From assembly GCA_028819345.1 (NCBI GenBank), contig JAPPLW010000103.1, positions 34,424 through 98,423 of the forward strand: a DNA stretch of 64,000 bases, in the 5' to 3' direction. Source of the stretch: a bacterium (GTDB lineage: Bacteria > Actinomycetota > Acidimicrobiia > Spongiisociales > ZC4RG35). Below, piece by piece: positions 58,296 through 64,000 of this stretch. The notes under the pieces are model-generated. The model ran no database searches. It saw nothing but the letters and a program-made list of their open reading frames with translations, and was not told the DNA's origin. The translations under genes were made by a program, and so were the position numbers. How positions within the stretch are numbered: the stretch's first letter is position 1; each line of letters starts with the position of its first letter.

Positions 58296-58337
58296 GTGAT
58301 CGGCACTTCACCGGGGGATGGCGGTAGGGTTACACCC

Positions 58338-59798
58338 ATGACAAGACTTCCTGAATTGAGTTCGGCCGCGGCGGTTTCTGACGGTGAGGGGCCGGTCTTG
58401 GTGGTGCCGATGGGCGCCAACCGGGAGCCCGGGCCGGGCGCCGAGTACGTGTTGGATCAGATGGGTTCGTGGGTGGGTGATCACCTGGAGGGAGTGGGTT
58501 TCTCGGGTAAGCCGGGGGAGGTGGCGGTGATCCCGACCGGGGGCGGATTCCGGTACAACTGGGTGGTGATGGCCGGCGTGGGCGGCGATCCCGATCATGA
58601 GACGGTGCGCAGAGCTTCGGCTATTGCCTACCGGGCCGCTCCCCGGACCGAGAGCCTGGTCACCACCCTCCACCAGGTATCCGCTCCCGGCGCCCTGGCC
58701 GCTACGGTGGAGGGTGCGCTCCTGGCCGGCTATCGGTACGAGAACTATCGGAGTGAGAAGTCGGACCGGCCTCTGGCGGAGGTGCTGCTGGCCTCCCCGC
58801 TGCCTTCGGATTGGGCGGATACGGCCGAGCGGGCCCGCATTGTGGCCGAGGCGGTCGCCCACGTCCGGGACTGGGTGAATCAGACCGGGCTCGACCAGGG
58901 GCCTGCGGACCTCGCGGCTTCGATGTCGGAGGTGGCGACCAAGGCGGGGATGACCGTCGAAGTGTGGGATGAGAAGAAGCTGGAGGAGGAGGGGATGGGC
59001 GGGATCCTGTCGGTCGGACGGGGATCGCACCGTCCGCCGCGCCTGGTGCGGTTGGTCGGTCCGGGGGAAGGTCCCAAACTGACCCTGGTGGGGAAAGGCA
59101 TCACCTTCGATACGGGCGGGTTATCCCTCAAGTCCCCCACCATGATGGAGAACATGAAGACGGACATGGCTGGTGCGGCGGCGGCCGCTGCGGCGGGGGC
59201 GGCCATAAGCCGGCTCGGCCTGGGAGTGAGGGTGGAGGTGCTCGCCGCCCTGGCCGAGAACATGCCGGGTGGGCGGGCCTCCCGCCCCGGGGATGTCTTC
59301 ACCGCCCGCAACGGAAAGACCGTGGAGGTGATGAACACCGACGCGGAGGGTCGGCTGGTCCTCTCGGACGCCCTGAGTCTCGGAGTGGAGGGATCGCCGG
59401 ACCTGATGGTCGACCTGGCCACCCTGACCGGGGCGTGCAAGATAGCCCTTGGTCTCGAGATCGCCGGGCTGTTCGGGACCGAGGACGCCAGGACAGCGGT
59501 GGCCGAGGCAGCCGAGGCGGCGGGGGAGAAGGTCTGGCCACTTCCCCTGCCTCCCGAATACCGGAAGTTGCTCGACTCGCCGGTGGCCGACATGAAGAAC
59601 ACCGGGGGGCAATGGGGCAGTGCGATCACAGCCGCCCTGGTGTTGAAGGAGTTCACCGGCGACGTCCCGTGGGCGCACCTGGACGTGGCGGGGCCCGCCA
59701 GGTCCGCCAAGAAGGAGCACTACATCTCAGAGGGCGGCACCGGTTTCGGAGTTCGCACCCTGGTCGAACTCGCCTCACGGATGGCGAGCGAGGGTTAG
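58338..59798 (+). CDS. pepA: leucyl aminopeptidase (M17), tandem copy 1
   Basis: GKGITFDTGGLSLKSPTMMENMKTDMAGAAAAAAA, NTDAEGRLVLSDALS; ATG 58338 preferred. Confidence 0.94.
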   Translation: MTRLPELSSAAAVSDGEGPVLVVPMGANREPGPGAEYVLDQMGSWVGDHLEGVGFSGKPGEVAVIPTGGGFRYNWVVMAGVGGDPDHETVRRASAIAYRAAPRTESLVTTLHQVSAPGALAATVEGALLAGYRYENYRSEKSDRPLAEVLLASPLPSDWADTAERARIVAEAVAHVRDWVNQTGLDQGPADLAASMSEVATKAGMTVEVWDEKKLEEEGMGGILSVGRGSHRPPRLVRLVGPGEGPKLTLVGKGITFDTGGLSLKSPTMMENMKTDMAGAAAAAAAGAAISRLGLGVRVEVLAALAENMPGGRASRPGDVFTARNGKTVEVMNTDAEGRLVLSDALSLGVEGSPDLMVDLATLTGACKIALGLEIAGLFGTEDARTAVAEAAEAAGEKVWPLPLPPEYRKLLDSPVADMKNTGGQWGSAITAALVLKEFTGDVPWAHLDVAGPARSAKKEHYISEGGTGFGVRTLVELASRMASEG

Positions 59799-59802
59799 AG
59801 GC

Positions 59803-61260
59803 GTGACGAGACTTCCTGATGTGAGTTCGGTCGCGCCCGTATCCGACGGGGAGGCGCCGGTGTTGGTGGTCCCCATCGGCGCCGACCGGGAGCCCGGGCC
59901 GGGAGCCGGGTACGTGTCGGACCGGCTGGGATCATGGCTTGGCGAGCACTTGGAGGGGGTGGGTTTCTCGGGCGAGCCGGGGGAGGTGGCGGTGGTGCCC
60001 ACTGCAGGGGGGATCGGCTACAACTGGGTTGTGCTGGTGGGGGTGGGTGACGATCCCGACCACGAGACCGTGCGCAGAGCCGCGGGCGCCGGTTTCAGGG
60101 CTGCTCCCCGGGCCGAAAGCCTGGTCACCACTCTTCATCAGTTGCCGGTGCCCGGCGCGCTGGCTGCAACGGTGGAGGGGTCGCTCCTGGCCGGGTATCG
60201 ATACGAGGACTACCGGAGCAAGCCGTCGGACCGACCGGTGCCGGACGTGGGATTGGCCGCTCCGGTGCCCTCCGACTGGATGGATGCCGTCGAGCGTTGC
60301 CGGGTGGTGGCCGAAGCGGTGAACGCCGCCCGGGACTGGGTGAACCAGCCTCCCCAGGACCAGGGTCCCGCCGATCTCGCCGCGTCGATGTCCGCCCTGG
60401 CGACCCAGGCGGGGATGACCGTGGAGGTCTGGGACGAGAAGAAACTCACCGAGGAAGGGATGGGCGGGATCATGTCGGTGGGTCGGGGATCGCATCGCCC
60501 TCCTCGTCTGGTGCGGATGTTCGGGCCGGGAGATGGTCCCAAGCTGACGCTGGCCGGGAAGGGCATCACCTTCGACTCGGGAGGGCTCTCCCTGAAGCCT
60601 GCCAAGAACCAGGAGCTGATGAAGTTCGACATGTCCGGGGCTGCGGCGGTGGCGGCTGCCGGGGTGGCGATCAGCCGGCTCGGTCTGGGGGTGAGGGTGG
60701 AGGTGCTGGCCGCTTTGGCCGAGAACATGCCGGGAGGCGGGGCAACCCGTCCGGGAGATGTGTTCACTGCCCGCAACGGGAAGACGGTGGAGGTGGTGAA
60801 CACCGATGCCGAGGGTCGGCTGGTCCTGGCGGACGCCCTGAGTCTCGGAGTGGAGGGATCGCCGGACCTGATGGTCGACGTGGCGACCCTGACCGGAGCC
60901 ACCGCGGTGGCGGTCGGTCTCAGGTACGCGGGACTGTACGGAACCGAGGACGCCAGAAGGATGGTGGCCGAGGCGGCGGAGGCTGCAGGGGAGAGGGTCT
61001 GGCCGCTTCCCCTGCCCCCCGAGTACCGCAAGTTGCTCGACTCGCCGGTGGCCGACATGAAGAACACCGGAGGCCGTTGGGCCGGCGGGATCACCGCCGC
61101 CCTGGTGCTTAAGGAGTTCACCGCCGACATACCCTGGGCGCATCTAGACATACCGGGACCGGCCAAGACCAAGGACGCCAAGCATTACCTGGCTGCCGGC
61201 GCCACCGGATTCGGGGTGCGAACCCTGGTGGAACTGGCCTCGCGGATGGCGGCCGGCTAG
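59803..61260 (+). CDS. pepA: leucyl aminopeptidase (M17), tandem copy 2
   Basis: GKGITFDSGGLSLKPAKNQELMKFDMSGAAAVAAA, NTDAEGRLVLADALS; closely similar to 58338-59798. Confidence 0.94.
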   Translation: MTRLPDVSSVAPVSDGEAPVLVVPIGADREPGPGAGYVSDRLGSWLGEHLEGVGFSGEPGEVAVVPTAGGIGYNWVVLVGVGDDPDHETVRRAAGAGFRAAPRAESLVTTLHQLPVPGALAATVEGSLLAGYRYEDYRSKPSDRPVPDVGLAAPVPSDWMDAVERCRVVAEAVNAARDWVNQPPQDQGPADLAASMSALATQAGMTVEVWDEKKLTEEGMGGIMSVGRGSHRPPRLVRMFGPGDGPKLTLAGKGITFDSGGLSLKPAKNQELMKFDMSGAAAVAAAGVAISRLGLGVRVEVLAALAENMPGGGATRPGDVFTARNGKTVEVVNTDAEGRLVLADALSLGVEGSPDLMVDVATLTGATAVAVGLRYAGLYGTEDARRMVAEAAEAAGERVWPLPLPPEYRKLLDSPVADMKNTGGRWAGGITAALVLKEFTADIPWAHLDIPGPAKTKDAKHYLAAGATGFGVRTLVELASRMAAG

Positions 61261-61272
61261 ACCCTCCTGACC

Positions 61273-61524
61273 GCCCGGGTCGCTGCCATTTCGTCGTCGC
61301 GATGAGTCTTGGAAGGTCGCCACACAACCCTCGCCGAATTCTTCTGCCCGACCCCGCGAGGTAGGTAACTTTCCTTCTCGCCACCAAGGCAGGGGTAGTG
61401 AAAAGGCAGGGGCAAGTTTGGCCGGCAGCAACGGCGAAACGGGGATTGCCGGCCCTGGTGGCGGGTGGATGCGGGTGACCGGATTCCTCGTCCCTTCGTC
61501 CGGAGTGGAAATCCGCCACCCCTG
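61273..61524 (+). repeat. Dispersed repeat copy 1 (~250 bp) with conserved hairpins
   Basis: Shares with 63263-63511 long blocks such as gtgaaaaggcaggggcaag, ggtggcgggtggatgcgggt, tcctcgtccctt, gtccggagtgga, cgccacccctg. Confidence 0.8.
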
Positions 61525-61590
61525 ATTGTGAGCTGATCCCTGTGGTGCGAGGACAGCGCTGCTTCTGGTTTTAGGTCAACTCCGCTGACT

Positions 61591-62772
61591 TCAGGATGAC
61601 GGATCGTCTTCGATAGAAAGGTCGCCGAAGCCGTATGCAATGTCAAGGACTTCTCTGGCCGCATAGAAGCGGTTGCGGCGCTTGCCCGTGATCTCCTCCA
61701 AGAGCCCGGCGTTGGTGAGGCTGTCTATGGCCCGCTGGGCCGTGGCATAGGAGACCCCCAGGGCTGTGGCTGCTGTGCCAACCTGTGTAAGGGGCTGGCC
61801 AAACAACTTTTCGGCCAGCCGAAGCGCCGTGGATGTTGCGCGAGCCTCGAGAAGTCGTTCACGGATGCGTTGCTGGAGTTCGACGAGGCTTACTGCCCTT
61901 CTTGTTGCGTCAGCTGCCACCGCGGCGAGCCCATTGAGAAAGAAATCAAGCCAGGGAAAAGGGTCTGAGGCTCGACTGGTGTGTCCGAGCAGTCGATAGT
62001 AATCCTCGCGATGTTGCTCAAAGAACACTGACGGGTAAAGCACTGGACGGCCAAGGATTCCCCGCTCCATAAGCATGAGAATGATCAGGAGTCTCCCAAT
62101 CCGACCGTTGCCGTCTGCGAAGGGGTGGATCGCTTCAAATTGGTAGTGGGCGAGACCTATTGCTATGAGGTCGGGCAACCGCCGGTCATGTAGGAACGTT
62201 TCGAGGTCGCCCATTGCTGCCTTGGCCTCGGTCGGCGGTGGCGGTACGAAACTCGCGGTTTCTAGCGTTGAGCCGGGGAAGCCTATCCAGTTCTGGGTCG
62301 TTCTGAAGTCGCCGGGGGCGGCATGGTGTCCTCGAACGTCCTCCATCAAGACTCGGTGGGTCTCTCGGATCAATCTGATGCTGATCGGCAGATCATTCAA
62401 GCGACCATCTGCGTAGTCGAGGGCGCGAAGATGGTTGTAGACCTCCCGGAGGTCGTCGGAAGCCTTAGATTGACTCGCCGCCTCGAACTCGAGCAGTTGG
62501 TTTACTGTGGTCACAGTTCCTTCAATCCTGGAACTCAGAACTGCTTCCAGGCGAATGTAGGGGGAGGTAAGCATCTCGATCGATCCGAGGCCCCGGACCA
62601 CGCCCTCCAGACGGTGTAGAGCGGCTGTCGCCCTTACCAGTTTCTTTACCGTCTCCTGCGGATAGTCGAGAGATACAGGCAGCGCCGCGGGGAAAAATGC
62701 CCTATACCCTTGTAGGGTCTTTCTGGTAATTCCAGATGTCCATTGTTGTCGTTTTGAACTGTCAACGACCAT
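61591..62772 (-). CDS. Fic family protein with C-terminal winged-helix domain
   Basis: Fic motif HPFADGNGRIGR; SSRIEGT inhibitory-helix-like motif; C-terminal TALGVSYATAQRAIDSLTNAGLLEEITGKRRNRFYAA. Confidence 0.94.
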   Translation of the reverse strand: MVVDSSKRQQWTSGITRKTLQGYRAFFPAALPVSLDYPQETVKKLVRATAALHRLEGVVRGLGSIEMLTSPYIRLEAVLSSRIEGTVTTVNQLLEFEAASQSKASDDLREVYNHLRALDYADGRLNDLPISIRLIRETHRVLMEDVRGHHAAPGDFRTTQNWIGFPGSTLETASFVPPPPTEAKAAMGDLETFLHDRRLPDLIAIGLAHYQFEAIHPFADGNGRIGRLLIILMLMERGILGRPVLYPSVFFEQHREDYYRLLGHTSRASDPFPWLDFFLNGLAAVAADATRRAVSLVELQQRIRERLLEARATSTALRLAEKLFGQPLTQVGTAATALGVSYATAQRAIDSLTNAGLLEEITGKRRNRFYAAREVLDIAYGFGDLSIEDDPSS

Positions 62773-62785
62773 TAGGCCCTCGCCT

Positions 62786-62837
62786 TATTATCGATTTCGA
62801 GATAGTTCGATAATACTTCCACTCACTGTTAGTGCAA
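62786..62837 (-). promoter_or_regulatory. Fic gene promoter with overlapping inverted-repeat operator
   Basis: On minus strand: TTGCAC (plus 62832-62837), 16-nt spacer, TATTAT (plus 62810-62815); 9-bp inverted repeat TATTATCGA (62786-62794) / TCGATAATA (62807-62815). Confidence 0.65.
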
Positions 62838-62901
62838 ATAACGATTAGGAACGCATAGACCTCGAGTTCCTGTCGCAGGGTTTGTTGGCCTGAGAGACCG
62901 G

Positions 62902-63265
62902 TTAGTCGCCGTCCTCGGCCTCTCCCGCCTCGGCCGCCTCCGGCGCCGGTGTCATTGCAGGGCGCCTGCGGCGGCGCCTCCACCAGAGAATTGCCACGAC
63001 GATGGCAATGAACGGCAGGAACGGGATCAAGACGCCGATCACCACCGCCAGCCCGCCCAGGACGGCAACCAGCGCTTCCACGCTGGAATCGAGGGCGTCG
63101 CCGAATCCGGTCGGGGAGCCATCGCCCCTCCGGTCCGCCTCCACCTGAACCATGACCTGCGTAGTGGCTAAGGTGTCGTCCAGGACGAGCCCCTCGGAGT
63201 CAATCGGCGTGGCGGTTACCGTGATCTCCGCCTCGATGCCGCGGACGGCGAGCCGGCCCGCCGGG
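62902..63265 (-). pseudogene. 5'-truncated DUF4349-like membrane protein remnant (C-terminal part only)
   Basis: VRGIEAEITVTATPIDSEGLVLDDTLATT...GFGDALDSSVEALVAVLGGLAVVIGVLIPFLPFIAIVVAILWWRRRRRRP. The ORF upstream of this is translated repeat and antisense of the next gene, so the native N-terminus is missing. Confidence 0.5.
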
Positions 63266-63511
63266 TAGGCGCCGTTTCTATCGTCGCGATTAGTTCTGGA
63301 AGGTCGCGATACAACACCCGCCGTTCTTACCTCCGGGGCGCCGCAACGTATGTAACTTTCGGTCTCGCCACCGAGAGGAGGGGAAGTGAAAAGGCAGGGG
63401 CAAGTTGGCCGGCTACAACGGTAAACCGGGGGAACGTCGGCCGTGGTGGCGGGTGGATGCGGGTATCCGGACTCCTCGTCCCTTGTCCGGAGTGGACATT
63501 CGCCACCCCTG
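63263..63511 (+). repeat. Dispersed repeat copy 2 (~250 bp) with conserved hairpins
   Basis: Direct-orientation relative of 61273-61524; see finding. Confidence 0.8.
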
Positions 63512-63547
63512 CCTCTTCCCCACGGGATCGAAGATTGGAGATCCCAC

Positions 63548-64000
63548 GTGGTGAGGTTGATTAAGGGAAGAGGAGCAGTGGGCTTCCCCAGGGTACTGAC
63601 GGCCTGGGGATGCGGGGCGTTGCTGGCCGCGGGACTGGCACAGGCGCTTCCCGTCTTGGCGGCGCCGGCCACCCATTCGGAGGGAGTATGCACGGTCGGC
63701 GCGGCGATCGACGAGGGTACGGGCGAGGTCTATCCCGTGACCTCCTGCATCCACACCGACCGCCGAGGCTCCCACTACAGTGTCTCCTTCGGCAGTCTTG
63801 ACCTGCAGATAAGCTCAAGCGGCTGTTTCTATATGGGGACCAAGTCCACGCAGTGGGTGTTTCTGGAACTCCACGAGGACGGTGATCTGACCTATGGCTG
63901 GTCTCCCGACGGGAGACGGGGTGGGCACCGGGTGGTGGGAACGGCCCACCGGTGTTCCTGGCCGGCGGTGGAGAGAGAAGAGATCGAGGGGTATGTGTGG
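63548..64000 (+). CDS. Secreted protein of unknown function, partial (runs off window end)
   Basis: Hand translation from GTG 63548 or 63551: VRLIKGRGAVGFPRVLTAWGCGALLAAGLAQALPVLAAPATHSEGVCTVGAAIDEGTGEVYPVTSCIHTDRRGSHYSVSFGSLDLQISSSGCFYMG... Signal-peptide-like N-terminus; open to the edge, so absent from the ORF track. Confidence 0.6.
   Translation, partial: MVRLIKGRGAVGFPRVLTAWGCGALLAAGLAQALPVLAAPATHSEGVCTVGAAIDEGTGEVYPVTSCIHTDRRGSHYSVSFGSLDLQISSSGCFYMGTKSTQWVFLELHEDGDLTYGWSPDGRRGGHRVVGTAHRCSWPAVEREEIEGYVW

Follow-up and report, generated by a model that had tools for sequence, protein, structure and literature searches.

What are the two hairpin-bearing repeats on either side of the Fic gene in the window (the whole 64,000-nt stretch of DNA analysed here)? 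The first-pass annotation proposed either a new family of structured RNA or cis-elements or a non-autonomous mobile repeat on the borders of a Fic island. The direct repeats themselves were readily confirmed: in the alignment, they lie at 61273-61524 and 63261-63511 in the same orientation and are 81% identical over approximately 250 nt. The 2.8-Mb genome (G000) contains only these two copies, and the next match (E = 0.027) falls within a transporter-like gene. We consider it probable that both repeats go back, as paralogues, to a single 5′ regulatory region, taking a history of tandem duplication and a structured leader as the mechanism together. The sequences compared were draft, multi-contig assemblies throughout.

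Genes around the two repeat copies

The locus comprises the following features.

58296-59798, forward strand: pepA1, tandem paralogue of pepA2 (79% identical at the DNA level)
59803-61260, forward strand: pepA2, leucyl aminopeptidase (M17), the 3′ end of which is part of the duplicated segment
61273-61524, forward strand: copy 1 (c1), putative orphaned leader copy behind pepA2, with no secreted gene after it
61591-62772, reverse strand: Fic protein gene (Fic_N and Fic), between both repeat copies
62902-63264, reverse strand: DUF4349 lipoprotein gene, a truncated remnant in which only ~120 aa survive at the C-terminal end (matching positions 141-213 of the 213 in the profile)
63261-63513, forward strand: copy 2 (c2), putative leader with its promoter-side region, placed immediately before the secreted-protein gene
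63551-64000, forward strand: secreted-protein gene, 304 aa, running past the window end

As the first-pass annotation had described, c1 is located between convergent genes (pepA ends at 61260 and Fic at 61591), and c2 stops shortly before the secreted-protein gene, approximately 40 nt from its probable GTG start. The position of c2 is the same in four other species (G003, G004, G005 and G006), and orthologues of c1 were found in G006 (89%) and G003 (92%; this copy is cut by the contig end). The best-supported assignment makes c2 the promoter-and-leader at work in the secreted-protein operon and c1 its orphaned paralogue; the promoter, transcription and function of the copies are what we infer from sequence.

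The secreted protein had no match in Pfam or NCBIfam, and its homologues were present in 51 of the 138 genomes of the order. Downstream of its gene, beyond the window (L064:8963-15004), are genes without a Pfam match and a gene for a TadA-like ATPase; together they may form a pilus or secretion operon whose leading proteins are uncharacterised. The tandem leucyl aminopeptidase pair (58296-61260) is found in five species of the genus, and there is one such gene in the stretch read of G002. The Fic gene shares 98% DNA identity with that of G003, whereas the adjoining pepA2 shares only 88%, and a recent exchange of the Fic gene is possible.

BLAST searches covering 34 genomes from the family and 138 from the order returned strong homologues of the repeats in the same genus only: two copies each in G003 and G006 and one each in G004 and G005. 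Additionally, G002 carries a diverged homologue (E = 0.009). Matches at E 3e-4 to 0.01 in the order's other genera were weak and were rejected: on inspection, G002 excepted, they resemble coding sequence with no relation to the element, such as the peptidase-like LHFQLHP segment that recurs in several f5 genomes. A family-wide search with a covariance model built from eight sequences gave strong matches in the same six species, the others having an E of 0.02 or worse. The repeats are thus confined to a single genus, in which six species carry them at one shared locus; a wide new RNA family is not supported.

Probable origin from a lost lipoprotein gene and a tandem duplication

The homologue in G002 is the 5′ end of a gene for a 296-aa lipoprotein (MEVGARRLATAIMAGGLSAMVVSGCGSSDS), which sits between pepA and the secreted-protein gene and overlaps the latter by four bases; DUF4349 lies convergent behind. 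In many further genera of the order, genes homologous to those of the lipoprotein and the secreted protein are neighbours. The element covers the promoter-side region, the Shine-Dalgarno/start region and the signal-peptide end of this lipoprotein gene, which is intact in G002 only: a lipoprotein signal peptide with a lipobox and an open frame beyond was found there, and the frame is broken in G000 and G003-G006, from which the gene body is absent. Copy 1 retains one such relic, aligned with the intact lipoprotein start of G002.

61398-61478, forward strand: lipoprotein 5′-end relic of copy 1, with a GTG start, 26 codons (VKRQGQVWPAATAKRGLPALVAGGCG) and a TGA directly after a lipobox-like GGCG

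In the surviving copies, the lipobox frame reads SALVAGGCGCPDSSLGPEWT or near variants and is out of frame with the start or interrupted by a stop, and the breaks differ among the copies. Taken together, the homology in G002, the absent gene body and the leftover lipobox frame identify the element, as far as sequence comparison goes, as the retained front of a lost lipoprotein gene. A fusion of the leader ORF to the secreted-protein gene was considered and rejected: the lipobox frame is open into that gene in G000 and G006 and meets stops in G003, G004 and G005.

The gene orders of the other species differ in what lies between the two halves. In G000, the order is pepA2, c1, Fic, truncated DUF4349, c2 and the secreted-protein gene. 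G006 has pepA1, pepA2, c1, a remnant of the secreted-protein gene (residues 132-162, 77%), DUF4349 in reverse, pepA2 fragments running into c2 (nt 945-997 and 1424-1455), c2 and the secreted-protein gene, followed by further operon genes, including a T2SSE/TadA-like ATPase. G005 carries pepA2, Fic, DUF4349, a pepA2 fragment, one element and the secreted-protein gene, and G004 only pepA2, one element and the secreted-protein gene. DUF4349 copies are long in G005, G006 and G002 and shortened in G000. The homology of both units therefore reaches past the repeat into the neighbouring genes, on both flanks in G006 and through the pepA2 fragment in G005. Nine informative sites are no more than suggestive of G004 being a recombinant of c1 and c2.

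The simplest history, supported by these remnants and by synteny, would make the repeats leader copies from an old tandem duplication followed by differing losses. The ancestral locus would have had the order that G002 preserves: pepA, the lipoprotein gene, the secreted-protein gene and a convergent DUF4349. The ancestor of the other five species would have lost the lipoprotein body, leaving before the secreted-protein gene a leader of ~250 nt with the promoter-side region, the Shine-Dalgarno/start region and the first ~40 codons of the lipoprotein gene. A tandem duplication of the segment from the pepA 3′ end through the leader and the secreted-protein gene to DUF4349 would then have produced two leaders; because c1 and c2 of G006 share the same junction to the upstream stretch of the secreted-protein gene, the lipoprotein loss would have preceded this duplication. 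Unit 1 would have retained pepA2 and lost the secreted-protein gene, making c1 an orphan, and unit 2 would have retained the secreted-protein gene and lost pepA, leaving c2 as the working leader. These steps are supported; Fic lies in the gap in G000, G003 and G005. The Fic island of the first-pass annotation is accordingly a by-product: G006 has both repeats without Fic between them and G005 has Fic with one copy, and the repeats bound an island only because Fic and DUF4349 sit between the duplication halves.

Nucleotide constraint and predicted hairpins

The element lies upstream of the secreted-protein gene in five species, and it is constrained there. Fourfold-degenerate sites in pepA2 and the secreted-protein gene served as the baseline (189/369 variable, 51%, in five species), against which the five leaders preceding the secreted-protein gene were compared. 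Three conserved parts stood out in copy 2.

63283-63317, forward strand: conserved promoter-side stretch (CGTCGCGATTAGTTCTGGAAGGTCGCGATACAACACC), 8/35 sites variable (0.23), p = 0.0013
63376-63424, forward strand: broken lipoprotein relic, with its Shine-Dalgarno-like GGAGGGG, its GTG start at 63386 and a 12-codon leader ORF (VKRQGQVGRLQR)
63443-63513, forward strand: most constrained block (P3), 7/67 sites variable (0.10) in 5 species, p = 7e-11 versus synonymous sites

The start region (63376-63424) had 3/27 variable sites (0.11; p = 3e-5), and the variable fraction was 0.33 in P2, 0.58 in the spacer and 0.51 just past the element. The promoter role of 63283-63317 is assigned from its position only; a sigma-70 scan gave no match in that stretch. 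A sense or antisense peptide was rejected as the cause of conservation because no frame survives the 1-nt indels that separate G005, G006c2 and G000c2 together with the stop in copy 1. Moreover, stem columns were less variable than loop columns (3/54 versus 17/65, p = 0.003). Strong selection at the nucleotide level on the hairpin block, without a conserved reading frame, is thus supported, and together with the difference between stems and loops this makes a cis-acting RNA or DNA element likely. Conservation of the hairpin-forming part to this degree is unusual for non-coding DNA.

In the orphan copy 1, the P3 block differed at 2/70 sites between G000c1 and G006c1 (p = 8e-7), and the promoter-side stretch differed at 7/35, drifting like synonymous sites. 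The hairpin block (61457-61524) is retained in this copy although no secreted-protein gene follows, and this conservation is the chief point for which none of the models accounts in full.

The stems that the first-pass annotation described were located in both copies, together with an outer helix in copy 2 (P1) that it had overlooked.

Copy 1, forward strand (stems spanning 61404-61524)
Outer stem: AGGCAGG 61404-61410 with CCTG 61521-61524 (truncated)
P2: GGCCGGC 61420-61426 / GCCGGCC 61448-61454
P3: GGTGGCG 61457-61463 / CGCCACC 61514-61520
P3b: ACCGGAT 61478-61484 / GTCCGGA 61498-61504
Copy 2, forward strand (proposed leader structure of P1, P2, P3 and P3b, 63392-63514)
P1: AGGCAGG 63392-63398 / CCTGCCT 63508-63514
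P2: GGCCGGC 63407-63413 / GTCGGCC 63436-63442
P3: GGTGGCG 63445-63451 / CGCCACC 63501-63507
P3b: TCCGGAC 63466-63472 / GTCCGGA 63485-63491

The pairing changes between the copies, which had been called wobble-compensated, are real, but they are one-sided wobbles rather than two-sided compensations. The loop TCCTCGTCCCTT, thought to be invariant, reads TCCTCCCTTGG in G003c2, G004, G005 and G006c2. Pairs were kept in 94% of cells, versus 31-50% with partners slid by 1-3 columns, a comparison biased towards structure since the structure was taken from one of the compared sequences. Against dinucleotide shuffles, folding energies were only slightly better (z from -0.7 to -2.0), and the copies do not share a predicted minimum-energy fold. 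Two-sided changes were found at four pairs, one per helix, all in G002, where the region codes for protein and P3b pairs poorly as aligned. The structure model scored G002 at 60.4 bits (E 2e-13) and the sequence-only model at 47.5 bits (E 6.5e-14); with an E no better than that from sequence only, structure adds no discrimination. Because of this, and because the two-sided changes come from G002 alone, an RNA structure of the leader is plausible, yet unproven. Of the proposed selection on RNA or hairpin-DNA structure, the constraint on the block and the lower variation of stems stand, whereas two-sided compensation is confined to one lineage.

The Rfam search, including the c-di-GMP and c-di-AMP riboswitches, gave no match at the gathering threshold; what appeared at E <= 10 were chance-level hits to unrelated families, the best being mir-935 (25.6 bits versus the 73 required).

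Alternative explanations and known systems

The pattern of constraint suggests that selection acts on a structured mRNA leader, which is our favoured mechanism, a DNA operator or a 3′-end hairpin being possible instead. The ribosome site and the P1/P2/P3 hairpins of c2 would form a structured 5′ leader tuning the translation or stability of the secreted-protein/TadA-like message. Several observations weigh against this mechanism: a pure cis-leader role leaves unexplained the P3 block that copy 1 retains without a secreted-protein gene, the two-sided changes come from G002 alone, folding energies are weak, and structure brings no E-value gain. The strongest of its competitors, though still unlikely, is a DNA operator in which the dyad TCCGGAC-N12-GTCCGGA binds a putative regulator and the hairpins are incidental. 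This would fit the perfect 7-bp dyad in 5/5 c2 copies and the conservation of loops as well as stems there, but the P1 and P2 arms outside the dyad are also conserved, the dyad sequence is lost in G002, and variation across the whole core is lower in stems than in loops.

A transcription terminator or 3′-end stabiliser, with copy 1 ending the pepA message and copy 2 acting as an attenuator, would account for the copy 1 hairpin being kept behind pepA2 while the promoter part drifts (7/35). However, the P3 hairpin is not followed by a U-tract and was absent from the terminator scan's output, and the G002 block lies inside coding sequence, which leaves this explanation improbable. To the same small degree, we credit a plain pseudogene relic, i.e., decaying 5′ ends of the lost lipoprotein gene with no function beyond a promoter. 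The frames are indeed broken in different ways, and the spacer and the downstream stretch vary like synonymous sites; the P3 block and the start region nevertheless lie far below synonymous variation, the former even in orphan copy 1. A mobile repeat bounding a Fic island has almost nothing left to commend it beyond the two direct copies that flank Fic in G000: there are at most two copies per genome at one locus in one genus, phages and plasmids gave no match to the repeats, remnants of pepA and the secreted-protein gene at the flanks point to tandem duplication, and in G006 both repeats stand without Fic, in G005 Fic with a single copy.

A more specific reading, which we offer tentatively, is that a cis-regulatory RNA arose from the front end of a gene that had died: the ribosome site and signal-peptide region of the lost lipoprotein gene would have persisted as a structured leader under stronger selection than the adjoining synonymous sites, would then have been duplicated, and would have been retained even with no gene behind it. 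If the RNA reading is true, the locus gives a dated case in which the start of a coding sequence became a regulatory leader, and a sister species still has the coding ancestor; if not, its value is in local annotation. In either case, hairpin-bearing direct repeats that resemble a mobile element can come from ordinary duplication and gene decay.

Compared with known systems, the element is similar to the structured 5′ leaders of bacterial operons in its place, after a promoter-side region and before the operon's first gene, and in that its hairpins and ribosome site are conserved while no reading frame is. Unlike known leaders of this type, it has no Rfam match, is limited to one genus and derives from the coding start of a lost gene. 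c-di-GMP or c-di-AMP riboswitches would suit a leader before a secreted-protein/TadA-like operon, but the element matches neither in Rfam, and no paper came up when the literature was searched for an actinobacterial tad pilus riboswitch. Direct repeats with hairpins around a Fic gene also recall repeat-bounded genomic islands and REP/MITE-type repeats; in contrast to the latter, the element occupies a single locus, its flanks are explained by duplication, and no terminal inverted repeats tested positive. The locus also resembles tandem segmental duplication with reciprocal gene decay, with paralogous flanks, a different gene missing from each unit and remnants in G006. Nothing essential differs from that pattern, and in this case a non-coding leader outlived the genes of its own unit.
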